Shown here in pieces: positions 3,460 through 20,997 of a DNA stretch of 21,050 bases. Made by a program: the position numbers and the translations under genes. The notes beneath the pieces were generated by a model, which ran no database searches, was not told the DNA's origin, and saw nothing but the letters and a program-made list of their open reading frames with translations. The stretch's first letter is position 1, and each line of letters opens with the position of its first letter. The stretch comes from a virus. The DNA lies in the IMG/VR virus record IMGVR_UViG_3300032053_000641, positions 1 through 21,050 of that record; one strand, written 5' to 3'.

Positions 3460-4485
3460 ATGGCTGTAAGTTCACTTAGCGCTATTTCCAGCGCACTATC
3501 ATTAATTTTCGATCATAAACTTGCTCGTCAGTGGAATCGTATGGCGCGCACTATTAGTCTTCTGGACGCAAAGCCAGGGACTGGTAAATCGGTAAACTGG
3601 GATGTTTCCACTTCTGGTCAGACCGCAACGGCACATACAGAAGGGCAGGACATTCAAAGTACAGAGCTTCTAATTGACGCTAAAGTTCCTATGATTCTAC
3701 CTTGGGGTCTTTATCGTAATGCCTTCGGTCTGACCGAGCATCAACTCGAAGCGGCTCTACAGAGCAAAGAATCGGCTGAACAACTGATGCAGCTTCTGGA
3801 AGAATCCGTATACGAATCCGTTGCGGCTCTTGCTTCTAAACTAAACGTTGACTTATTTACTGGTATTGGTTCTTCAAGCCAACTATGCGGTTTTGATTAT
3901 TCGCTACTGGTAACTGGTACATATGCGACACAAGACGTCGGTGCCATTACAGTTCTTCGTTCGAATCAAGACATGAACGGAACAGTTCCTCGCGCTCTTA
4001 CCATTGAACTAATGGATAAGATGGAAGGCACTATCTTCACAGCATCGGGTCTCCGTCCCGATTTCATTGTAACGACTCCCAAAGTCTTTACTAAGTACAA
4101 GTCCCTCTTCGAGCCAATTCGTAGAGTAGTTGGTGATAGCGTTAATCGCTATGACACCGGCGTAACTGATGACGGCGTATATTTCCAGGGCATCCCTGTC
4201 ATTCGTGATAAGGATTGTCCCGCTGGTTATATGTATTTCGTTAATAAGAGCGCTGCTCATATGGCATACATGCCGCCTGCTAACTTCGGTGATGCAGTTT
4301 CTTTCGTTGTAAAGATGGGCATGGGATCCAATGGTCAGGGCGAAGAGCAAGAATTCGGAATTCCTTTTAGAATTCAATCACTTGCAAAGACTGGCGATAG
4401 CGTCAAGTTCTTCCTTCGTACCGCTTGTCAGTTAGTAGTTCGTCGTCCCAATTCTTGCGGCGTAATCGGATACATTACCGAATAA
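3460..4485 (+). CDS. Major capsid protein (HK97 fold)
   Basis: 341 residues, preceded by AAAGGA at 3445-3450. It follows the scaffold gene and has the length and pattern of HK97-fold capsid proteins: an N-terminal arm, an extended loop region about residues 35-75, a long spine helix about 90-135 (rich in E, Q, L and A, ending ASKLNVDLFTGIG), and an A-domain-like C-terminal half with GLRPDFIVTTPKVFTKYKSL and a GIPVIRDKDCPAGYMYFVNK strand-turn motif common in phage coats. The gene uses CGT for most arginines and more C-ending codons, whereas neighbours prefer AGA, as expected for the most highly expressed virion gene. It would form the icosahedral shell around the scaffold core. Confidence 0.92.
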   Translation: MAVSSLSAISSALSLIFDHKLARQWNRMARTISLLDAKPGTGKSVNWDVSTSGQTATAHTEGQDIQSTELLIDAKVPMILPWGLYRNAFGLTEHQLEAALQSKESAEQLMQLLEESVYESVAALASKLNVDLFTGIGSSSQLCGFDYSLLVTGTYATQDVGAITVLRSNQDMNGTVPRALTIELMDKMEGTIFTASGLRPDFIVTTPKVFTKYKSLFEPIRRVVGDSVNRYDTGVTDDGVYFQGIPVIRDKDCPAGYMYFVNKSAAHMAYMPPANFGDAVSFVVKMGMGSNGQGEEQEFGIPFRIQSLAKTGDSVKFFLRTACQLVVRRPNSCGVIGYITE

Positions 4486-4509
4486 TTTTAGCCGTAAAAG
4501 GAAACTAAC

Positions 4510-5055
4510 ATGGCTATTAATATTCGCAAAGACGGAAGTTTATTTTTAGAAGGTGTTGTTACTGCTTATAATACACTCGTAGATGCAGCATTAACCACTC
4601 AATCACATAGAGATAAAACTTCAAAGCAAAATGGAACAGCATTTGTTCCAAGCAGCACACCTTTATTAATTGCTGGAGTAACTACAGATGCATACACCTG
4701 TAATGCTCTTGCAATTGAATTAAAGGGTGTGCTTTCATTCCATATCGCAGATACATCAGCACATTTGATTGCAGACATTGTAGACGTTAATTTCGACGGA
4801 TATGCCGTCGGTAATCCCGCGTCTACAAATGTAACAAATTCAATTGCATTAGCAAATGCAATAAAAGTTGATTATTCTGCCCATATGACACGAACATCTG
4901 TACATTTAAATAATGATGTAACTAATACAATAGCTGCGCCAGACGCAACAGAAATTAATAGTTTGAAGACGCTGCTTGCAGATCTAAAAGCTAAAATCAA
5001 TTTGCACGATGCAGCCTCGGGATTAAAGCAGAGGTATGTGCTAATTCCTGCTTAA
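4510..5055 (+). CDS. Histidine-motif head protein, possible capsid decoration protein
   Basis: 181 residues, starting behind AAAAGGAAA about 24 bases after the capsid stop. The sequence holds two copies of H-x6-H-x3-D: HIADTSAHLIAD at residues 78-89 and HMTRTSVHLNND at 125-136. A further isolated HD lies at 166-167. The same kind of H..T..H...D helical repeat occurs in other phage structural proteins, as far as I recall, without a settled function. The gene's place directly after the capsid gene fits a decoration or accessory head protein. The paired His and Asp residues could bind metal or form inter-subunit contacts. The function is inferred from position only. Confidence 0.65.
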   Translation: MAINIRKDGSLFLEGVVTAYNTLVDAALTTQSHRDKTSKQNGTAFVPSSTPLLIAGVTTDAYTCNALAIELKGVLSFHIADTSAHLIADIVDVNFDGYAVGNPASTNVTNSIALANAIKVDYSAHMTRTSVHLNNDVTNTIAAPDATEINSLKTLLADLKAKINLHDAASGLKQRYVLIPA

Positions 5056-5064
5056 AGAAATATA

Positions 5065-5352
5065 ATGTTCTGGATTAATTCATCGAATTATATTGTAAAG
5101 ATAAAGATAGATCTGGGAAAGGGTAGACAACCAATAGTTATTCTACCCTCCCAGATTATTGAATTGCCGGATTATATTACAAAAGACGTGATTGACCAGA
5201 TAGCTCCTCAATTGATAGAATATATTTCACCAAAAGTTGAAATTATACCAGAAGAAACAATTGAAGCTCTACCAGTTGAAGTTCAAAAAGCAGTTTTGGA
5301 TCCAACACAGTTCAAAGCTAAACGCGGAAGAAAACCAAATAAGGGAAAATAA
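5065..5352 (+). CDS. Small hypothetical head/neck protein with basic AT-hook-like tail
   Basis: 95 residues. The ATG at 5065 has only a weak purine stretch upstream, and no other in-frame Met exists, so this start is the only Met choice. The N-terminal two thirds are beta-prone (VKIKIDLGKGRQPIVILPSQ, IIELPDYI), then helical (about 53-80). The last dozen residues, KAKRGRKPNKGK, are strongly basic and resemble an AT-hook core (RGRKP), suggesting contact with packaged DNA. The family is not recognised. The gene overlaps the next by one base (TAATG). A 15-bp hairpin lies within its first third (5111-5156). Confidence 0.7.
   Translation: MFWINSSNYIVKIKIDLGKGRQPIVILPSQIIELPDYITKDVIDQIAPQLIEYISPKVEIIPEETIEALPVEVQKAVLDPTQFKAKRGRKPNKGK
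5111..5156 (+). other. Long hairpin inside coding sequence downstream of capsid genes
   Basis: ATCTGGGA (5111-5118) pairs perfectly with TCCCAGAT (5149-5156), and GGGTAGA (5121-5127) with TCTACCC (5142-5148). Together they give 15 base pairs with one AA bulge and a 14-base loop. No T-run follows, so it is not a standard terminator. It could be an RNase processing site or translation attenuator separating abundant capsid mRNA from downstream neck genes. Confidence 0.7.
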
Positions 5353-5765
5353 TGGCTTATACAGAATCCGACCGCGTACAAATTAGACATTTTATGGGAG
5401 CTGGCACAGTATTCCTTCAGCTATTTCCCAAATTAGAGAACGCAATTACAGCCACTCAATCAACTGCCGATGGTGGCACCAGACCAGACTCATCTACTGA
5501 AACGTATGCAAAAACAATAATCACAGACCTACAAGCGGTTGAAACAAAATTAAAAGCATTACATTGTCAAGTACAAGTAGTTGAGGCGAATCAAAAAGAG
5601 ATAGTATTAAATGTTGCGCAAGGCATATTCCTTCTAAAATCAGAGGGAAGGAGAATGGTTGGTAATTTATCAAGAGTTCTCGCTTGTGCTCCTCTATATG
5701 ATGCCTTCTCTTCGCAGCCGCCATCGGCAGATGATTTTGCTAATATATATGCTCCGGTGATGTAA
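5352..5765 (+). CDS. Putative head-tail connector/neck protein
   Basis: 137 residues, starting in a TAATG overlap with the preceding gene. It opens with MAYTESDRVQIRHFMGAGTV, a pattern I associate with small phage neck/head-completion proteins found between the capsid and tail genes. It is predicted mostly helical: residues about 48-78 form an amphipathic helix rich in K, E and Q, and residues 80-110 a second one (ANQKEIVLNVAQGIFLLKSE). It has no membrane segment or signal peptide. Positionally it matches Mu gp36-like or gpFII-like head-completion proteins, but no decisive motif is present. Confidence 0.55.
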   Translation: MAYTESDRVQIRHFMGAGTVFLQLFPKLENAITATQSTADGGTRPDSSTETYAKTIITDLQAVETKLKALHCQVQVVEANQKEIVLNVAQGIFLLKSEGRRMVGNLSRVLACAPLYDAFSSQPPSADDFANIYAPVM

Positions 5766-6238
5766 TGTCATTGGCAGATTGTATTAAATATACAATGGAT
5801 CAGGTATTATCGATACCTTATCATTTAGGATTAAGACCATTTCGTGTATTTTTAACCAAGATTCAATACACGGGAACTCGTCCTGGATTAGGAACCAGAA
5901 CAAGAACAGATACGGAACTCTTGGTTGGCGACGGCTACCCAATGTGTAATCAAGTCTCTGCCAGAGATATTTTCAATTCTGGCGGTTTACTTTCAGATAA
6001 GGATTTCAAATTAACAATTATAGATCCTTATACAACTGTGGACGGTATTAGTGGAGGAACTGCTGAATCTATATTTATGCCGCAAATGGATGGATATAAT
6101 ACTCAAATATATTTCCATTTATTTGGCGGTGGTTTTCCTCCAGGTGGACAATATTTCAAAAAGAAATATGGCGTAGAAGATTGTAATTTGGTTACTGATA
6201 TTTATTTAGAAGCAACAGGCGAGATACCAGGAGCATGA
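5765..6238 (+). CDS. Putative neck/head-closure protein, unknown family
   Basis: 157 residues, overlapping its upstream neighbour by TAATG and its downstream neighbour by four bases (ATGA). The mixed alpha/beta sequence has aromatic and glycine-rich stretches: FRVFLTKIQYTGTRPGLGTR near residues 27-46 and a glycine loop FGGGFPPGGQYF around 119-130. There is no enzyme motif. The gene lies between a connector candidate and the HK97 gp10-like gene in a tightly coupled block, so a role in head closure or the neck is the most economical view. The family is not recognised. Confidence 0.5.
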   Translation: MSLADCIKYTMDQVLSIPYHLGLRPFRVFLTKIQYTGTRPGLGTRTRTDTELLVGDGYPMCNQVSARDIFNSGGLLSDKDFKLTIIDPYTTVDGISGGTAESIFMPQMDGYNTQIYFHLFGGGFPPGGQYFKKKYGVEDCNLVTDIYLEATGEIPGA

Positions 6239-6654
6239 AAGCATTCATAGCAGCATTAGCTAAAGCTGGTCAACAATTTGCTTCTAAAGTAGAAAATTCG
6301 TTAGAAGATATTGCTAAAGTTGCACAACAACAAGCAAAATCATCTCACTTATTTGGCGGATCGGTTAATGGAGGATTACGAGCAGCAATCAAAATCCTAT
6401 CCAATGGAAGATTTTCCAGAACAGTATTAGCTGATAAAGATTATGCTGGTTATGTAGAATATGGCAACAATCAAAAGGGTCCTTATATCTATCCAATTCG
6501 TGCAAAAGCTTTACACTTCTTTATGAATGGAAAGGAAATATTTGCGAAGAGAGTAAGAGCACATGGACCATTACCTTTTATGGATGAAGCCAAACAATAT
6601 ACAATTAAAAAGATTCCAAGCATAATAACAAAGCACATTAAGGAAATTTTATAG
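6235..6654 (+). CDS. HK97 gp10-like head-tail joining/tail completion protein
   Basis: 139 residues. An N-terminal amphipathic helix (about 1-35) is followed by the hallmark block of the HK97 gp10 family: YAGYVEYGN at about 70-78, then IYPIRAKALHFFMNGKEIFA and KRVRAHGPLPFMDEA. The C-terminal helix (about 118-138) is basic. Members of this family sit at the head-tail junction and are needed for joining or tail completion. The gene starts four bases inside the previous one and ends in TAGTG, which supplies the GTG start of the next gene. Length and motif order fit the family. Confidence 0.8.
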   Translation: MKAFIAALAKAGQQFASKVENSLEDIAKVAQQQAKSSHLFGGSVNGGLRAAIKILSNGRFSRTVLADKDYAGYVEYGNNQKGPYIYPIRAKALHFFMNGKEIFAKRVRAHGPLPFMDEAKQYTIKKIPSIITKHIKEIL

Positions 6655-7373
6655 TGGAAAATCGTTATTTTCAAGTAGCAGAGGTTTTATCTCCATTAAC
6701 CAGTTCTACCACAAACTCACTATTATATGACGCGGATCCTTGTTTATATCGTATTATTCAGTATTTTTCTGGTGTGCTCATACTTCATTCATTGGACAGG
6801 TGGAACGCCGAAGTAACAAGAGCTTCCAGAACCGATTTAATTGATAAAGTAGTTAATGAAGTTCTTCCTTATGATCCTCTACCTCTTGCAACAGACAATC
6901 AATTTAGATTTCCATTGCTTTGTGCTTATAGAAATAATGAATCATATGAATGGAAGACAATTGCGTGGTATCATGTAATTTCAGAAATAGAAATTCTTTA
7001 TATATTACCGCCACTTACATCAGACCAGACAGAAGGTTTATATCCATTTTTGACACATGCGGCAAGGACACTGGTAGATAGGACAGAAGAGACATTAGAT
7101 TCTAATTTCAATTCTGGAGAACAGGTTTGGGTTGAAGCGGGCTTGGAAGAGATAGAAATTACAAATTGCACATATGGAAAGATACCTGGATTAAAGAACG
7201 GGTTACAATCTAATATTTATTTTCCAACAGTATCATTATCATTGAAATGTGTAGAAAAGAGAATGCCAGTTGCAGCCAACTTTGAATTGTTTGATGGAAT
7301 AGATGCAAGGGTGAAGGTACACATAGACGGTACTCCATGCGATGTAAACGTAGCAGACATAAAGACACCATAA
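6654..7373 (+). CDS. Putative tail terminator/neck protein (GTG start)
   Basis: 239 residues, starting at GTG in a TAGTG overlap, so initiation probably depends on coupling. The central part is aromatic-rich (YEWKTIAWYHVISEIEILYI, about 98-117), followed by a helix, YPFLTHAARTLVDRTEETL. A beta-rich end follows: EIEITNCTYGKIPGLKNGL and YFPTVSLSLKC, about 163-200. Its position between the gp10-like gene and the sheath-proximal small gene corresponds to the tail terminator (Mu gp37 position), which caps the tube and joins it to the head. No family motif is decisive, so this is mainly positional. Confidence 0.55.
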   Translation: MENRYFQVAEVLSPLTSSTTNSLLYDADPCLYRIIQYFSGVLILHSLDRWNAEVTRASRTDLIDKVVNEVLPYDPLPLATDNQFRFPLLCAYRNNESYEWKTIAWYHVISEIEILYILPPLTSDQTEGLYPFLTHAARTLVDRTEETLDSNFNSGEQVWVEAGLEEIEITNCTYGKIPGLKNGLQSNIYFPTVSLSLKCVEKRMPVAANFELFDGIDARVKVHIDGTPCDVNVADIKTP

Positions 7374-7387
7374 CAGGAGAAAACAAC

Positions 7388-7669
7388 ATGAAGAAAACAT
7401 TAACAGTATACGCCTCTGAACACGACGCAATGGTAGCAAATATTGATGCATTGGACGCAAAACCGCCAATGCGCAGATTTATTGGAAGACAATATAATGC
7501 AGAACTTGGCGAAGCTGGTGGCTGGGAAAAGAAATTAGAACCGGAAACAATTCCTTGCTATAATGATTATATAAAAGCAATTAAAGATGGCGATTTAATT
7601 CCGGCAGACGAACAAACCGCAAAGATATGCGGAGTGCCTTGGGCAAGAAAACAAAAAGATTCAAAGTAA
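7388..7669 (+). CDS. Small pre-sheath protein, DUF2635-like
   Basis: 93 residues. The frame is open back to an ATG at 7337, but the start at 7388 is preferred: AGGAG at 7375-7379 lies eight bases upstream, the earlier ATG is inside the previous gene without a ribosome binding site, and MKKTLTVYAS is a more natural N-terminus. Sequence features are RRFIGRQYNAELGEAGGWEK and YIKAIKDGDLIPADEQ. In Mu and relatives a small DUF2635 protein (gene 38) occupies this spot just before the sheath and has a similar 'W... DGD.IP' ending. Its function is unknown; a role in tail assembly is inferred from synteny. Confidence 0.65.
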   Translation: MKKTLTVYASEHDAMVANIDALDAKPPMRRFIGRQYNAELGEAGGWEKKLEPETIPCYNDYIKAIKDGDLIPADEQTAKICGVPWARKQKDSK

Positions 7670-7692
7670 ACATTTCATAAAGGAAAAACAAT

Positions 7693-9219
7693 ATGGTAAC
7701 TTCAATTCCTCTTATCGGTCTCGCGGCAAACGATCCAGTGCCAGGAAATTACATTGCAGTAAATTTTGCACAGGGTCCGGCAAGCTCCGGCACCACAAAT
7801 TATTCAGCAATACTAATTGGAAATAAACTATCCACCGGCTCAGCAACCGTTGATACGACAGTTTATGGTCCAGATACCACGATACAATTGGCTTCAGAAG
7901 ATGATGCCAAAAATCTATTTGGTCAGGGCAGCGAGCTTCACCAAATGTGGAAAGCTTTCGTCAAAGTAAATCCAGTAACCAGTTTATATGCAATTGCAGT
8001 AACCGAATCTGTTGGTTCGCAAGCAACAGGCACAATCGCAATTACATGCGCTGCTGCGACTGCTCCTGGAACATTAAGAGTTGTTATTGGTACCACAGTA
8101 ATTGATACTGGTATTGCTCTAACTGATGTTGCGGCAACAATTGCAACAAATGCCGCGGCTTCTATAAATGCAGTGCCCGACCTTGCTGTAACAGCGACTC
8201 CTTCATCCAACAACGTTAATATAACTGCACGACAGAAAGGTCTACGCGGTAATGCCATTAGAATCAGCGCTCAGGTAATTGGGACTGGCACTGGTGCTAC
8301 AGTAACTCCATTAGCGCGAACTGCATTAACTGGCGGAACTACAGCAGACAGTTCGACTGTAGCATTGGCAACAATCGCCTCCAGCAGATTCTATTATCAA
8401 GTAAGTGCAGCAGAAGATGCAACACAACTTGGCGCATTAGTTTCTCAAACAGATTCAAACGCAGCACCGACAATAGGCATTCGTTCAAGAGTATTCGCAG
8501 GATCAGTTGTTTCCCTTGCAAATACAATTACAGTTGCAACTGGAAGGAATTCCGCTCGTGCCGAAATAGTTTGGCAGGAAAATTCGGATCTTACCCCAGC
8601 ATTGCTTGCCTCAAACGCAGCAGCTATTTATTCTCTCTTTGAGACCGCGCTCGGCGCGCAATCAAGTCTGAACTATGATGGTTTCGGTAATGATGCGGTA
8701 ACTTCGCAATACTGGAAGATTCCAGCACTATTAAGTGGTGCAACAGTATCTCGCACATCAGTCAAGTCTGCACTGAACAATGGTATTACTCCAGTAGCAA
8801 TATCTCGTCCAGGTGCGTCTTATCTGGTAAAGAGAGTTACTACTCGTTCACTCAGTGGCGCAATCGCTGATTATAGAATCCGCGATGCACACAAAGTCAC
8901 GATCTGTGACTTCTATTCGGATGACCTTCTAAACAAAGCAAATCTTGAATTAGGCGGAAAAGCAATTGGCGACGATGTAGTTCTTGGACAAAGACTTCCT
9001 GGTGCAACCGTTGTTACACCAAAGACATTCAAGAATTTGATTGTCAAACTCTTAACAGAATATTCGAATAAAGATCTGTTGCAGAATGTAGAAGACATTA
9101 AAGCAGGCATTCAAGTTGTACGAGAGGTTTCTCCTTCTACAAGACTAAGCGCGCGTATTCCTCTACAACCAATTGATATACTTGACCAGACTGCAACCAA
9201 CGTAGATCAAGTAGCATAA
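7693..9219 (+). CDS. Tail sheath protein (Mu gpL-like)
   Basis: 508 residues behind a TAAAGGAAAAA ribosome binding site. The N-terminus IPLIGLAANDPVPGNYIAVN with a YSAILIGNK strand matches the start of Mu gpL-type sheaths. Residues about 103-200 form the usual beta-sandwich insertion (ATGTIAITC, GTTVIDTGIALTDVAATIAT, PDLAVTATPSSNNVNITARQ, KGLRGNAIRI). The C-terminal half carries the conserved assembly and contraction domain with SRPGASYLVKRVTTRS and DFYSDDLLNKANLE. The protein polymerises around the tube and contracts at infection. It is the first large gene of the tail operon and is followed by the tube genes. Both morphology and the Mu-like grouping rest mainly on this protein. Confidence 0.92.
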   Translation: MVTSIPLIGLAANDPVPGNYIAVNFAQGPASSGTTNYSAILIGNKLSTGSATVDTTVYGPDTTIQLASEDDAKNLFGQGSELHQMWKAFVKVNPVTSLYAIAVTESVGSQATGTIAITCAAATAPGTLRVVIGTTVIDTGIALTDVAATIATNAAASINAVPDLAVTATPSSNNVNITARQKGLRGNAIRISAQVIGTGTGATVTPLARTALTGGTTADSSTVALATIASSRFYYQVSAAEDATQLGALVSQTDSNAAPTIGIRSRVFAGSVVSLANTITVATGRNSARAEIVWQENSDLTPALLASNAAAIYSLFETALGAQSSLNYDGFGNDAVTSQYWKIPALLSGATVSRTSVKSALNNGITPVAISRPGASYLVKRVTTRSLSGAIADYRIRDAHKVTICDFYSDDLLNKANLELGGKAIGDDVVLGQRLPGATVVTPKTFKNLIVKLLTEYSNKDLLQNVEDIKAGIQVVREVSPSTRLSARIPLQPIDILDQTATNVDQVA

Positions 9220-9245: not shown

Positions 9246-9647
9246 ATGGCTTTAGTACAATACGCAAGAGCAACAATCAGTGTTAATAGTATCGATTTGT
9301 TTGAAGAGGCAAGTGTAACTATTAGCAGAACAACTAATTCGCAGCCAGTATCCACAGTTCACTGGGGTTACAACGGCGAAACACCCGGCGCGCCCATGTG
9401 CGAACTTTCTGTAGATAACGCTGTTCCAAGTTCGGCAATCGAATTTGATCCAGGCACCTACATGCTAACACTTTCTCCAGTTGGTGGACCAGGACCCAAT
9501 GGCATTAAGTTTGTCATTGATGTTCCAGGTGGACCAACCATGCAATTTGATGGTTTTATTGTATCGGATAATTTCTCGCACGCGATAAATGCATCCAGCA
9601 AGATTACCTTCACTGCTCGTGGTCGATTCGAAACAACTTGGGAATAA
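9246..9647 (+). CDS. Tail tube protein, paralog A
   Basis: 133 residues behind AAAGGAAAATAACA, in the normal position for the tube gene (directly after the sheath). The beta-rich sequence holds the blocks GYNGETPGAPMCELSVDNAV, PSSAIEFDPGTYM and MQFDGFIVSDNFSHAINASS with KITFTARGRFETTWE. These blocks recur in the next gene, so the two are tandem paralogs. Tube proteins of this size stack as hexameric rings inside the sheath. No coiled coil or signal is seen. Which paralog is the major tube subunit cannot be decided from sequence, although this one has the stronger ribosome binding site. Confidence 0.82.
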   Translation: MALVQYARATISVNSIDLFEEASVTISRTTNSQPVSTVHWGYNGETPGAPMCELSVDNAVPSSAIEFDPGTYMLTLSPVGGPGPNGIKFVIDVPGGPTMQFDGFIVSDNFSHAINASSKITFTARGRFETTWE

Positions 9648-9651
9648 CTGA

Positions 9652-10050
9652 ATGAGTTTCTTTCAGTTCGCATTATCTCCAGCCTATAAAATATACACAA
9701 CAGCAAATGTCTATGTAAATGGATCTTTGCTGTTGGAAGAGGCTGCGGTGATAATTGACAGAGTTGCCGAAAGCACCTCTGTCTATACATTAGGCAAAGG
9801 ATATGCTGGAGAAGCGTCTGGCGCTCCAATGATTGAAATGTCGGTTGATAATGCCGTCCCATCAACAAACTTTGAATTGGATTCTGGCAAGTTCTTGGGA
9901 CCAATGCAAAAAGTTAATTTTGCAGTAAATGCTGGAGATAAAACTATACAGTTTGATGGTTTTATAATTGCTGATAATTTTAGTCATGCAGTTAATTCAT
10001 CTTCAAAATTATCTTTTAAAGCAAAGGGATTTTTCGCAGACTGGGAATAA
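9652..10050 (+). CDS. Tail tube protein, paralog B
   Basis: 132 residues, starting four bases after paralog A. It shares GAPMIEMSVDNAVPS, NFELDSGKF, IQFDGFIIADNFSHAVNSSS and KLSFKAKGFFADWE with the first copy. The N-terminal third diverges (MSFFQFALSPAYKIYTTANV). It has no strong ribosome binding site of its own, so it is probably translated by coupling and may be less abundant. It is the last gene before a strong terminator. It may form alternating rings, a tube-initiating or terminal ring, or a specialised minor tube subunit. The duplication is seen directly; the roles are inference. Confidence 0.8.
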   Translation: MSFFQFALSPAYKIYTTANVYVNGSLLLEEAAVIIDRVAESTSVYTLGKGYAGEASGAPMIEMSVDNAVPSTNFELDSGKFLGPMQKVNFAVNAGDKTIQFDGFIIADNFSHAVNSSSKLSFKAKGFFADWE

Positions 10051-10068: not shown

Positions 10069-10116
10069 TGGCTCTGATGGTTCTTATTCTCCTGGGAACT
10101 ATCAGAGCCATTTTTT
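10069..10116 (+). terminator. Intrinsic terminator after the tail tube genes
   Basis: TGGCTCTGATGGTTC (10069-10083) pairs with GAACTATCAGAGCCA (10096-10110): 15 pairs with one G-U, and a loop of about 12 bases. T6 follows at 10111-10116. The T-run serves the plus strand. The stop codon of the minus-strand HNH gene (10115-10117) overlaps the T-run. On the minus strand no T-run follows the stem, so termination there would be weaker. Confidence 0.9.
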
Positions 10117-10606
10117 ATGAATGCGCAAACTCTCCGTGTAACTCCTTCCTTAATCTATCCGCCTCTTTTATAGCATCATCTATGCTATCAAAAAACGCAT
10201 AAGCCTTCCTATATCCCTCCTTCTGAATTCTAACATACCATTTATTTCTTTGATTGCTCCAAGCTACATTCTTATATCCAGAACTGTTGTCTTTTCTAAT
10301 TAATGCGTTGGCATTATTCTGTGATGTTGTGCATTCTCTTAAATTCATTATTCTATTGTCAATTCTATTGTGATTTATATGGTCTATTTCTGTTGGAAAT
10401 TCTCCATAATATAAAAGCCAACATACTCTATGAAAAGAATAAATAATGTTTTTATCAATCTTTATATATAGATAGCCAGTCCTATTATTGAGAAATATTG
10501 ATGCTCTACCAGTTTTACTTTTAATATTTCCAGTTTCTGGATCGCAAGTAAAGTTATCTAAAATGTATTGCTTCCATTCTGCGTCTCTCTCTTTATTTAT
10601 TTTCAT
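10115..10606 (-). CDS. HNH homing endonuclease with C-terminal AP2-like domain
   Basis: 163 residues on the minus strand. Its start is supported by AGAGG seven bases upstream (10614-10618). The HNH region is at residues about 57-100: H59-R60, then EIDHINHNRIDNR (73-85, with D75, H76, N78 and N84) and NLRECTTSQNNAN (88-100). Residues about 107-160 form an AP2-like DNA-binding domain (SSGYKNVAWSNQRNKWYVRI, then FFDSIDDAIKEADRLRKE). Free-standing proteins of this build are phage homing endonucleases that cut an allele lacking the gene and spread by repair. It is antiparallel to all neighbours and interrupts the otherwise Mu-like order between tube and chaperone, so it looks like an insertion. 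All key HNH residues are present, and it is probably active. Confidence 0.9.
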   Translation of the reverse strand: MKINKERDAEWKQYILDNFTCDPETGNIKSKTGRASIFLNNRTGYLYIKIDKNIIYSFHRVCWLLYYGEFPTEIDHINHNRIDNRIMNLRECTTSQNNANALIRKDNSSGYKNVAWSNQRNKWYVRIQKEGYRKAYAFFDSIDDAIKEADRLRKELHGEFAHS

Positions 10607-10688: not shown

Positions 10689-11366
10689 ATGACAGAAGAA
10701 ATCAAATCAATAATTCAGGATGACATTTGGGCAAGAATAATGGCTACGGTACGCCCGCATGTAGTTGTGCCATTTCCAAGGATTAATCCAGACACTGGAG
10801 AACCCGTTGCTGAAATGGCAATGGTGGTATTAACATCAGAAGAAAGCGCAATAGTAACGGCTGATGCAGAAAAGAAAGTAAGAAGAATATTAAAAGATAA
10901 TATTCCGGGTCAGGGCGAGGCGCACAGAGGATATGATGAACTTTTTAATACATTCATTGCTGAAGGACTTATATACACCGCTTGTCGTAATAAAGAGGAT
11001 TTAAAGCGTAATTTCTTTCCAAAGAAAGAAGCAATTCTTCAAATATTAAACGTTGATGAGTTGGCTATATTACTTAATCATTATTATACGGTGCAGATTG
11101 AGTTGGGTCCAGTAATTTCGATGCTTAATGATGAAGAGATGGAAATGTGGACAAATAGATTATTGGAGGCGGGCACGAAGCCAGCTTTTTTATTAAATTC
11201 ATGCTCATTGGAAGTTCTGAAGATGTTGGCAGTGTTTTTGGCAAACCAATTAAAGATCTCACGGACATCGAACTCCTTGCCTATCTCACAGCCAGAAAAC
11301 ATTTCCTCGGAGAACTTGACAAGCGAAAATCAAAAGAACAAGAAGACGCCTTCTCCAAAGAAATAG
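10689..11366 (+). CDS. Tail assembly chaperone, zero-frame product
   Basis: 225 residues with a strong AGGAG. The helical N-terminal part (about 1-168) includes PFPRINPDTGEPVAEMAMVV and AEKKVRRILKDNIPGQGEAH. The last 57 residues, after the slippery site, become a polar low-complexity tail (SQPENISSENLTSENQKNKK). It lies directly before the tape measure gene, as lambda G or Mu gp41 does, and should bind the tape measure protein before tube assembly. A -1 slip at 11186-11192 would replace its tail with that encoded at 11192-11437. The family assignment is by position and frameshift architecture rather than by a conserved motif. Confidence 0.8.
   Translation: MTEEIKSIIQDDIWARIMATVRPHVVVPFPRINPDTGEPVAEMAMVVLTSEESAIVTADAEKKVRRILKDNIPGQGEAHRGYDELFNTFIAEGLIYTACRNKEDLKRNFFPKKEAILQILNVDELAILLNHYYTVQIELGPVISMLNDEEMEMWTNRLLEAGTKPAFLLNSCSLEVLKMLAVFLANQLKISRTSNSLPISQPENISSENLTSENQKNKKTPSPKK
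11186..11192 (+). promoter_or_regulatory. Programmed -1 ribosomal frameshift site, T TTT TTA
   Basis: In the zero frame the codons are GCT TTT TTA, so the heptamer T TTT TTA is in perfect X XXY YYZ phase. The -1 frame is open from 11159 to a stop at 11435-11437, and the heptamer falls within the overlap. A Shine-Dalgarno-like GGAGG lies at 11165-11169, 16 bases upstream, and may stimulate slippage as in bacterial frameshift signals. No strong hairpin is visible just downstream. Confidence 0.8.
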
Positions 11367-11437
11367 ACATCAAGCTAAGCAATGTTTGTACATTGGAAAG
11401 CCTTCTAAAATATAATAATATAAATGCAAACAATTAA
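11192..11437 (+). CDS. Tail assembly chaperone, -1 frame extension (GT-type fusion)
   Basis: After slippage the ribosome continues in the -1 frame from 11192 (I-K-F-M-L-I-G-S-S). This adds 81 residues to the first 168 of the chaperone, for a 249-residue fusion. The extension is charged and helical (IKDLTDIELLAYLTARKHFL, GELDKRKSKEQEDAFSKEID) and looks like a real domain, unlike the polar zero-frame tail. An internal ATG at 11201 has no ribosome binding site, so independent translation is less likely. In G/GT systems the fusion is the minor product that recruits tube subunits to the tape measure. The gene ends 12 bases before the tape measure ATG. Confidence 0.75.
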   Translation: MKFMLIGSSEDVGSVFGKPIKDLTDIELLAYLTARKHFLGELDKRKSKEQEDAFSKEIDIKLSNVCTLESLLKYNNINANN

Positions 11438-16288: not shown

Positions 16289-17088
16289 TGTCAGTTTTTG
16301 ATACATCAAACCTTTTCAATATATATGATGTTTTAACATCCACAAAAGATCCAATCACTGGAACGCGCACATATCAACTGGGAAACGTCACAAATTCAGA
16401 AGTGACATCTGATGGCGCAGAATGTTGGCAGCATTTTGGATTTGCTTCCAGACCGGCAGAAGCCGTGCCGAACGGCACGGATGCACCTCAAACAATTGCC
16501 ATTGCCCGTTCTGATAGAGACTTGGCAATTGCTGAAAGAGATGTTAGAGGACAAGAAATATATGGAGAATTAAAGGCTGGCGAAACTTGTCTTTATGCAA
16601 CTGGAAAGGATTCAACTGGTCAGGCAAGAATTCTTCTAAAACAAGATGGCGGAATAAATCTTTATACTAAAAAAGGAAATACTGATTCTGGTCAAGGTTT
16701 TGGTATATTTCTTAATGCTGATGATGACTCAATTACATTAACAAATTCAACAGGTTGCGGTATTAGGATTAGTACAGACGGCGTACAAATTATAGGAAAA
16801 GCTGGAGCCGCAGGAATTACTGTTTCGGATAAAATCCAATTATCCAGTCAAACTATACAAGCACCAAATCTGCAAGTTCTTGGAGGCATAACTGTAGGAT
16901 CTGGTGGAGCAAATATTGGTGGACCAACAGTGATGACCACATTGACAGCAACAACTTGCACAACTGGACCGATAGTTGCCGCTCATATTACAAGCACAGC
17001 AACATTAACGGGAACATTAGCCGCGACAGGAGTGCTTGTAGGCGCATGTAATATAGCGGTAGCCGCATCACCAGTAGTATTGGCATAA
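16288..17088 (+). CDS. Baseplate central spike protein (Mu gp45/gpV-like)
   Basis: 266 residues, TAATG-coupled. Residues about 45-125 carry the spike OB/gp45 block: AECWQHFGFASRPAEAVPNG, IAIARSDRDLAIAERDVRGQ, then YGELKAGETCLYATGKD. The rest is a beta-helix-like repeat tail, Gly-, Thr- and Ala-rich (IQLSSQTIQAPNLQVLGGIT to TLTGTLAATGVLVGACN). The protein would trimerise as the membrane-piercing needle below the hub. No HxH iron-binding apex motif is visible; the C-terminus holds a lone His (H233). The needle may therefore need another tip protein. A 7-8 bp GC hairpin lies inside at 16463-16480. Confidence 0.85.
   Translation: MSVFDTSNLFNIYDVLTSTKDPITGTRTYQLGNVTNSEVTSDGAECWQHFGFASRPAEAVPNGTDAPQTIAIARSDRDLAIAERDVRGQEIYGELKAGETCLYATGKDSTGQARILLKQDGGINLYTKKGNTDSGQGFGIFLNADDDSITLTNSTGCGIRISTDGVQIIGKAGAAGITVSDKIQLSSQTIQAPNLQVLGGITVGSGGANIGGPTVMTTLTATTCTTGPIVAAHITSTATLTGTLAATGVLVGACNIAVAASPVVLA
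16463..16480 (+). other. GC-rich hairpin inside the spike gene
   Basis: CCGTGCCG (16463-16470) is followed by AA and CGGCACGG (16473-16480), a near-perfect GC-rich inverted repeat. With a four-base GAAC loop it forms a 7-bp stem. It encodes residues 59-64 (AVPNGT) in otherwise AT-rich DNA. Confidence 0.65.
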
Positions 17089-17228
17089 TGAAAAGAAAAC
17101 AAAAGAAACCAAGGAATATGATTGTTCTGGCAATGCTGTTGCATTGCAAGGGCGGCTTTATGAAAGATAGAAGGCTGCCGAAAGGTGGTGCTCGCAATAA
17201 ACAACGAGAATATCTGTTGGAAATATAA
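17088..17228 (+). CDS. Small basic protein of unknown function, 46 residues
   Basis: ATG at 17088 overlaps the spike stop (TAATG), and its own TAA at 17226-17228 overlaps the next ATG the same way. The reading frame therefore fills the gap exactly, which strongly favours a real gene despite its size. The protein starts MKRKQKKPRNMIVLAMLLHC and continues KGGFMKDRRLPKGGARNKQR. It is very basic, with a short hydrophobic stretch at residues 11-19. The layout (RN-x-x-V then a Gly-rich basic half) is reminiscent of small basic phage proteins such as those reading 'RNP.V...L..K.G.H.K'. It could be an assembly factor for the spike or the repeat protein that follows. The function is unknown. Confidence 0.65.
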   Translation: MKRKQKKPRNMIVLAMLLHCKGGFMKDRRLPKGGARNKQREYLLEI

Positions 17229-17551
17229 TGCCTTGTCTTCCATCTTTACAAATGCCTGGATTGCCAAGTATTAATTTACCCAGTCTTCCATCTTTGAATT
17301 TACCATCAATATCTATAAGTTTTAATTTTGAATTTCCAATTCCATCATTATCTCTACCGGGTTTGCCAAGTATTAATTTACCAAGTTTACCATCATTGAA
17401 TTTGCCAGCAATACCAATACCAAGTTTTAATTTTGAATTTCCATTACCAAGTTTATCATTACCAGGATTACCAAGTATTAATTTACCAAGTTTACCAAGT
17501 TTGAATTTACCAGCTTTACCTTCAATTTCACTACCATGCCCATTACAGTAA
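17228..17551 (+). CDS. Leu-Pro-Ser repeat protein next to the spike (possible needle tip or baseplate accessory)
   Basis: 107 residues built from about three 34-35-residue repeats. GLPSINLPSLPSLNLP recurs at residues 11-26, 45-60 and 80-95, and FNFEFP at 32-37 and 67-72. The composition is extreme: no Lys, Arg, His, Asp, Thr, Val, Tyr or Trp. The only charged side chains are Glu35 and Glu70, in equivalent repeat positions. Single cysteines sit near both ends (Cys3 and Cys104, in PC and PCP contexts). There is no signal peptide. The regular Pro every two to four residues suggests an extended or polyproline/solenoid rod rather than a globular fold. It is encoded between spike and wedge, with TAATG coupling upstream, so a part of the needle or hub is plausible. 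I recognise no family. Confidence 0.75.
   Translation: MPCLPSLQMPGLPSINLPSLPSLNLPSISISFNFEFPIPSLSLPGLPSINLPSLPSLNLPAIPIPSFNFEFPLPSLSLPGLPSINLPSLPSLNLPALPSISLPCPLQ
17263..17488 (+). repeat. Tandem DNA repeat in the Leu-Pro-Ser gene
   Basis: An 18-base unit beginning GCCAAGTATTAATTTACC occurs at 17263 and 17365 and, with one change (ACC for GCC), at 17470. The spacings of 102 and 105 bases equal whole codon counts. The surrounding DNA is also strongly similar between units (for example AGTTTTAATTTTGAATTTCC after the first two). Confidence 0.85.
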
Positions 17552-20058: not shown

Positions 20059-20997
20059 ATGGCGACAACAGGCAGATTTTCTCCAATATTTAGAACAGGG
20101 CAAAATTCAGAATCTCCATTTGAGCAGATTCTTGAATCCCTAAATTATGCAAGAGGAACTGCTTATGCTGCATATGATCCTACCATTACAGATACCGCTG
20201 TTTATGTAGAAAATTATGCAATAGCAAAAGCGATTATTGATTTATGGGAATCAAACCAAAGACTTGCAAATCAATTTGACCCATTAAAAATGGGAGCATA
20301 TTTAGAAAGGTGGGAATCTATATTAGGAATCATGGTAGTACCAACTGATACTATTGACCAGAGAAAAGCTGTTGTTGGCGCGAAAATGTCATTATTGGCA
20401 AATGCTCCTATACACCAAGCAGTAGAAGATTTGTGCAAGGCTTATTTGGGAAATATGTTCGTTGAAGTAGTCAATAGTTACGCTTCTGAAAATTTGGGAG
20501 GCGTTCCTGGAGGAGCAACCGTGCCTGGTGGAGTTACTCTGCCAGATGATTTGTGGTTTTCTCCAATATCTATAATAGCGGTTAGAACTTGGCAGGTAAG
20601 AGATAAATACAATAATTATCTATATGATGAAAGAGATTATGTTAAAAAGATAAACCAATTATCTTATGTTTTGGACGGCTTTCTTCCTGCTTATATGTTG
20701 TGCACCACATATAGATTTCTTTATCAAGGAGCTGGAACTGTAAGTAATGGAACCACATATGAAATAGTTGGTTCAGGAACTGCATTTACAGTTGATCTTG
20801 ATCCTGGAAGTCAAATAGAAGTAGTTGATGATGCAAATAATTTACGCACATATACAGTTGTAACAGCAACAAATCCAACTCATGTTACAGTTGTAGAGCC
20901 AGTTACTACAATGACGGGTTGCTATTATAGAATAAATGGCTTCTATCTTGATGTTACAAATAATCTTAATAATCTAATTTTCGGAGTTGATCCATAA
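20059..20997 (+). CDS. Baseplate/tail protein (Mu gp48-like) with inserted beta domain
   Basis: 312 residues. Residues about 75-132 match the gp48/DUF2313 pattern: MGAYLERWESILGIMVVPTD, then DQRKAVVGAKMSLLANAPIH and AVEDLCKAYLG. This part caps the wedge and connects to fibres. Residues about 223-293 (GAGTVSNGTTYEIVGSGTAF, DLDPGSQIEVVDDANNLRTY and onward to CYYRING) form a small beta domain of the type 'G.GT...G..T...GSGTAF...L..G..I' that recurs in phage tail proteins. A Gly/Pro-rich loop (GGVPGGATVPGGVTLPDD, 147-164) separates parts. The protein is longer than minimal gp48, and the extra length is the beta domain. Confidence 0.78.
   Translation: MATTGRFSPIFRTGQNSESPFEQILESLNYARGTAYAAYDPTITDTAVYVENYAIAKAIIDLWESNQRLANQFDPLKMGAYLERWESILGIMVVPTDTIDQRKAVVGAKMSLLANAPIHQAVEDLCKAYLGNMFVEVVNSYASENLGGVPGGATVPGGVTLPDDLWFSPISIIAVRTWQVRDKYNNYLYDERDYVKKINQLSYVLDGFLPAYMLCTTYRFLYQGAGTVSNGTTYEIVGSGTAFTVDLDPGSQIEVVDDANNLRTYTVVTATNPTHVTVVEPVTTMTGCYYRINGFYLDVTNNLNNLIFGVDP

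Follow-up and report, generated by a model that had tools for sequence, protein, structure and literature searches.

The window analysed here, by which we mean the whole 21,050-base stretch from an IMG/VR record, carries a tail operon of the myophage type, and Table 1 shows the features that surround its spike gene. The C-terminal part of the spike is rich in threonine, and the spike gene is followed by a small basic ORF that overlaps, through TAATG, both the spike stop and the start of the next gene. This ORF matched no family in our searches and is missing from the corresponding interval in most of the relatives described below. The gene that follows encodes a protein of Leu-Pro repeats (here LP protein), and the wedge gene starts 1 base past its stop. 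Elsewhere in the window, positions 1-926 are occupied by a collagen-like protein of Gly-x-y repeats with 36/108-bp tandem arrays, truncated by the window start, and 3' of it lie three tandem paralogous proteins of about 190 residues (927-2674; MSKI/MSDI...DHFKVDYSG). Past a sheath-like protein there are two neighbouring related proteins of about 133 residues (9246-10050), perhaps duplicated tube proteins, and an ORF on the minus strand within the tail operon (10115-10606) resembles an HNH homing endonuclease. Directly 5' of the tape measure, a 78-residue ORF overlaps the 3' end of a 225-residue ORF (10689-11437), which is the layout of tail chaperones produced via ribosomal frameshift.

Table 1. 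Features of the tail operon around the LP gene of the window.
Feature	Position	Strand	Evidence or remark
gp44/gpP-like baseplate hub protein, 433 aa	14987..16288	+	Pfam GpP-like_1st 1.7e-6, NMB1110-like_C 8e-7; PHROG 177 baseplate hub 1e-20
gp45-like OB-fold central spike, 266 aa	16288..17088	+	Pfam Phage_Mu_Gp45 6.6e-4, under the curated cut-off
Basic ORF, 46 aa (MKRKQKKPRN...; MKRKQKKPRNMIVLAMLLHCKGGFMKDRRLPKGGARNKQREYLLEI)	17088..17228	+	Sequence and translation
LP-repeat protein, 107 aa, proposed pseudo-threefold spike-tip cap	17228..17551	+	
Cys3, N-terminal cysteine	17234..17236	+	Found in every aligned member
Unit 1, residues 4-37, 34 aa	17237..17338	+	
Unit 2, residues 38-72, 35 aa	17339..17443	+	
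Unit 3, residues 73-107, 35 aa	17444..17548	+	Ends in conserved CP[LF]x
Cys104	17537..17539	+	Followed by invariant Pro; 3 periods from Cys3
gp46/gp25-like baseplate wedge protein 1, 156 aa	17553..18023	+	PHROG 120 baseplate wedge 6e-3
gp47/J-like baseplate wedge protein 2, 502 aa	18033..19541	+	Pfam Baseplate_J 7e-20
gp48-like gene	20059-20997		

Proline (26 residues), leucine (25), serine (20) and isoleucine (9) make up 75% of the LP protein, followed by asparagine (8) and phenylalanine (6), while D, H, K, R, T, V, W and Y are absent; the two glutamates lie in matching FNFEFP stretches of units 1 and 2. The initial annotation had already given the length, the three like units, the eight absent amino acids, the two glutamates and the terminal cysteines, and all of these are confirmed by translation. 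The units have 28, 23 and 25 identical positions in pairwise comparison; units 1 and 2 are alike over almost their full length, and unit 3 departs from them in its final ~10 residues. At the nucleotide level, TRF describes a unit of about 105 bp in 2.6 copies, with a sub-repeat of 8 residues (24 bp). Comparison of the units gives more differences at synonymous sites (pS 0.41) than at non-synonymous ones (pN 0.14), the latter value being biased low by the choice of windows on amino acid identity, and serine is retained through two switches between TCN and AGY codons. The protein starts with MPC and terminates with CPLQ, as in the family signature set out below, and its period of 35 goes with a Cys-to-Cys span of 102, i.e. 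3x35-3.

A tblastn search with this protein gave no matches in viral contigs or phages, because the protein is of low complexity, and the hub and gp46-like proteins of the window, used as queries, found no relatives among viral contigs. The first relative was reached through gene order, in a phage from Manatee Spring (MW202476.1) that has the hub and J in common with the window and carries at the LP position a 103-residue ORF (MCQFDLPRIALPLPALP...MECPFD; 4938-5249) off the annotated frame, GenBank annotating another frame at 4940-5395. This is the sole GenBank phage record found with an LP gene; it also contains further doubtful annotated ORFs up to 6180. Degenerate DNA patterns and gene-order searches yielded more than 40 relatives, almost all from uncultured phages, the sources being IMG/VR and, for one, a bacterial metagenome-assembled genome (MAG). 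The initial annotation had proposed to look for LPSLxLP-type genes beside spikes in other phages, and had set conservation of the repeats at the spike-wedge locus beforehand as a test; such genes exist in these relatives, with the repeats conserved at that locus. The degenerate patterns also drew unrelated frames, such as PAVAVP arrays and PPLP antisense frames, which were discarded by means of the terminal cysteines and the family profile. This profile has exactly one match per record in 32 of 32 phage records (E 3e-30 to 9e-8), and against bacterial genomes at E<=1e-7 it gave a match in 1 of 890, on a phage-like contig. A pattern search located one LP gene (L407, 5675-6037) within a Mu-like tail cluster (3513-7965) on a 75-kb Polyangiaceae MAG contig; this cluster is possibly a prophage and a possible experimental entry point.

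A search independent of the LP sequence was made by J alone, with an alignment of four proteins (A7), one of six proteins being too diverse. Among the 18 loci obtained, an LP gene lay upstream in all 16 with a strong J match (E <= 2e-36), and the two loci that had none were weak, partial J matches. Seven of the contigs were new with respect to the LP scans (L447, L448, L451, L452, L453, L454 and L460), and each has an LP gene with three units and both cysteines. No family in Pfam or NCBIfam and no credible PHROG covers the members, no solved structure in the PDB corresponds to them, and the literature searched holds no description of such a protein. Weak matches to PHROG 33360 'tape measure', the COMM domain, GLTT, LRR receptors and apolipoprotein B were rejected as matches of composition. 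Judged by these sequence comparisons, the LP proteins are a new, widespread and previously unrecognised phage family.

The anatomy of the family was derived from an alignment of 33 members, and units and cysteines were counted on 42. The aligned proteins start with M-x-C and end with C-P-[LF]-[DE], in which CP is invariant, and every unit has a single invariant proline at an equivalent place (P10, P47 and P82). Three units are present in 40 of the 42 members, with a period of 31-41 residues, and exactly two cysteines in 41. The Cys-to-Cys span equals 3 x period - 2.5 ± 1.8 residues (range -5 to +2; r = 0.97; 42 members), and since it is about three periods whatever the period length, the two ends are in phase. 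With the repeat number fixed at three and the ends in phase, the open-ended rod or solenoid of the initial annotation is not supported; the sequences suggest rather a monomer divided into three equal parts and clasped at its ends by the cysteines, which would fit the axis of a trimeric spike. One member (L251) has a FSVDLDIDLSL-DLP linker between its units, and we infer that its C-terminal FSV-x-C-P-F-D and N-terminal M-C-x-F-x-LP may jointly replace such a linker. The two-unit members are L100 and L293. A contig near-identical to the former (L197/L436) has two full units and the beginning of a third at its end, which suggests that the two-unit state of L100 is due to assembly collapse; for L293 no explanation was found, and it counts against the tip-cap reading developed below. 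When units are compared within genes across members, pS is 0.57 and pN, again biased low by the selection of windows on amino acid identity, is 0.14; the likeness of the units is therefore maintained by selection and is not due to recent duplication, to which L233 is perhaps an exception. Members hold 0-13 K+R and 1-12 D+E, so that 'uncharged', as the protein had been described, is no family trait. They have 0-2 His+Trp each and no conserved His/Cys metal site, the only two cysteines being both terminal.

The LP gene lies just 3' of an OB-fold spike gene and 5' of a gp25/gp46 wedge gene; in most cases the adjoining genes overlap or are a few bases apart. In Mu, gp46 is baseplate wedge protein 1, which is gp25-like (PMC11915804). 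It is a gene neighbour only. The initial annotation noted that gp46 directly follows spike gp45 in Mu-like phages; the LP gene is not gp46 but an extra gene inserted between the gp45-like and gp46-like genes. Both Mu gp45-type and T4 gp5/VgrG-type spikes adjoin LP genes: 7 of 27 upstream neighbours match Pfam Phage_base_V, the window spike matches Phage_Mu_Gp45, and a profile built jointly from the syntenic spikes has VgrG and CIS spikes among its PDB matches (5e-5 to 4e-3). The downstream neighbours are gp25-type wedges, assigned in most cases to PHROGs 43 and 261. That the gene keeps this place next to the spike across diverse phages upholds the earlier proposal that the protein works at the needle, and we hold a baseplate role of some kind to be highly probable. 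Two irregular neighbours were seen: the spike gene of L152 (9115-9970) has a frame change, probably through an error in the sequence (HTHATAFGPSGPP lies in another frame), and the gp25 gene of L028 (420-2003, minus strand) is split by an intein-like insertion with HNH endonuclease matches.

For the sharp point on a three-chain spike two solutions are known, namely metal-bound apex domains and PAAR caps. The apex domain of the P2 gpV, phi92 and Mu gp45 spikes carries HxH and Fe, and PAAR tip proteins have an internally repeated, pseudo-threefold architecture. In the T6SS, the spike tip is a cone-shaped PAAR (PMC8651079), and in Mu-type spikes the point is built from three chains, its apex containing Fe and Ca (PMC11915804). 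PAAR (PF05488) was found in none of 32 LP-bearing records, some of which are fragments, and the PAAR profile had no match in the window LP protein or in any of the 33 aligned members (hhalign probability 0). In an LP-less bacterial locus (L498), a PAAR gene (Pfam 9e-14) lies directly after a base_V spike, i.e. in the LP slot. The initial annotation had remarked that no HxH apex was visible in the upstream spike, and HxH is indeed missing from the last 75 residues of all 19 LP-bearing gp45-type spikes, that of the window included, vs its presence in 12 of 17 LP-less ones (L005-L007 and 14 PF06890 loci), a contrast drawn between small and related samples. Four of the remaining five LP-less spikes have a VGD/PAAR-like end, of which a single one is matched by Pfam PAAR (E 6e-4). 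The lack of PAAR and of HxH speaks in favour of the PAAR-like substitute or cap that had been suggested. Where an LP gene adjoins a gp5/VgrG-type spike, the spike retains HxH, after which 26-32 more residues lead to the end, an extension also found in an LP-less spike (L481). A rule that HxH is always lost where the LP gene is present was accordingly rejected; strict exclusion is limited to the gp45 type, and in the gp5/VgrG-type phages a cap would not replace the iron apex.

LP-rich sequence also occurs on or after gp5-like spikes of other phages. In two cyanophage-like contigs (L046, 2444-3589; L038, 1373-2581, minus strand) a stretch of about 40 residues is fused to the C-terminus, i.e. the distal end, of a gp5-like spike that hhalign relates to other gp5-like proteins at 96%; one stretch per chain amounts to three per spike trimer. 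These tails are K/E-rich, have no cysteine, are preceded by a helical stretch and may be non-homologous to the LP family. Marine T4-like contigs (L079, L116, L077 and L099) encode a K/E-rich LP protein right after gp5; together with L266 and L210, the LP-rich proteins after or near gp5-type spikes of marine and large phages span 126-203 residues. Both the fused tails and the separate proteins share with the LP family an LP-type sequence at or beside the spike C-terminus, but differ from it in being charged and in having neither the terminal cysteine pair nor a clear three-unit structure.

We consider it probable that the LP gene product is a pseudo-threefold spike-tip cap, PAAR-like in its work yet unrelated. 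A trimeric spike requires one point on its axis, and three like units with clasped ends would have the right symmetry. A single-chain body would cap the distal end of the central spike and so give the contractile tail its piercing tip; the three units would be set around the axis, each facing one spike chain. The C-terminal F-S-x-x-C-P-[LF]-D and the N-terminal M-x-C-x-F-x-LP would each supply half of a third inter-unit linker, which would bring the ends together and let the two cysteines close the ring as a clasp, most likely by a disulfide. The Leu-Pro pattern places hydrophobic residues at 3-3-2 steps, which suggests extended or polyproline-type strands with their leucines packed inward; such strands around a leucine core might give a rigid, hydrophobic and nearly featureless point with no metal site. 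Tip location, fold, clasp and piercing are all what we infer from sequence and gene order. In AlphaFold2 (AF2) monomer models of the window protein (pLDDT 64, pTM 0.17; alignment of 30 sequences) and of one relative (pLDDT 45, pTM 0.17; 19 sequences), neither a fold nor disorder was predicted with confidence, and the poor quality of these models counts against the tip-cap reading. A homotrimer is unlikely, because the three units of one chain would already match the spike trimer. Like PAAR proteins (PF05488; T4 gp5.4, T6SS PAAR), the LP protein is a small single chain encoded beside an OB-fold spike and expected to cap a trimeric axis; it differs in having no sequence or profile similarity to them, no Zn-type ligand set and, in the window protein, no histidine, and in its units of 31-41 residues with one cysteine at each end. 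Like the apex of P2 gpV, phi92 and Mu gp45, it would sit and act at the distal point of a gp45-type spike, and the HxH apex and the LP gene alternate among the gp45-type spikes compared; the apex, however, is built of three chains with one unit each, whereas the LP protein is a separate gene product, one chain with three units, and has no HxH or metal ligands.

The same axis and symmetry would account for the three units if the protein were instead a plug or liner, a three-unit monomer on the axis inside the hub or spike cavity that seals the tube beneath the tape measure. A hydrophobic, cysteine-closed body would suit that place, and the tip of the gp5-type partners, which keep HxH, may already be complete. 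We regard this as rather unlikely in view of the loss of the distal HxH apex that accompanies the LP gene in gp45-type phages, the LP stretches on the distal C-terminus of the gp5-like spikes of L046 and L038, and the PAAR gene that holds the same slot elsewhere. The constant and tightly coupled position beside the spike gene, with one copy per record, would also fit a non-virion chaperone that folds or trimerises the spike beta-helix, its three units gripping the three chains. Such an assembly factor seems decidedly unlikely, as it would leave the fused stretches and the HxH contrast unexplained, and to our knowledge no tail chaperone combines so hydrophobic and proline-rich a composition with two invariant terminal cysteines. 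The hydrophobicity of the window protein, with few charges and almost no His or Trp, and the low confidence of its AF2 model might be expected of a loosely ordered, Pro/Leu-rich lipid-binding peptide at the spike that opens the envelope; the strictly phased, closed three-unit geometry and the conserved ends speak for a defined body, charge is common among the members (up to 13 K+R), and this explanation is very improbable. A functionless chance or low-complexity repeat ORF, for all the simple composition and the many unrelated LP-rich frames in the scans, has a negligible probability, being refuted by the relatives with their common position, unit number, cysteine phase and amino acids kept at saturated synonymous sites.

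With the tip cap as the preferred reading, the proposals of the initial annotation about this protein are partly supported. It seems that a third solution to the tip problem, which annotation pipelines have missed or mis-framed, is in use across a large group of uncultured phages. If true, this would add a new fold and a small metal-free tip module, and would offer a direct test of whether the requirement for a spike tip is a match to the threefold axis; the LP gene, if confirmed, might serve as a marker for locating spikes in dark viral sequence. We put forward more tentatively, as a claim slightly short of an even prospect, that these proteins form a third class of piercing tip, common to Mu-type and T4-type lineages and occurring also as per-chain tails on gp5 spikes, in which a single chain of three Leu-Pro units, free of metal and closed by a disulfide, adopts a fold outside the PDB. 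A second conserved family, for which no Pfam or credible PHROG match was obtained, adjoins the LP gene in gp5-type phages (L078, 6888-7370; L146, 6738-7229; L202, 4176-4658; L363, 389-865; and L167), and its proteins have about 130-160 residues and end in ...PPP..PVPI.
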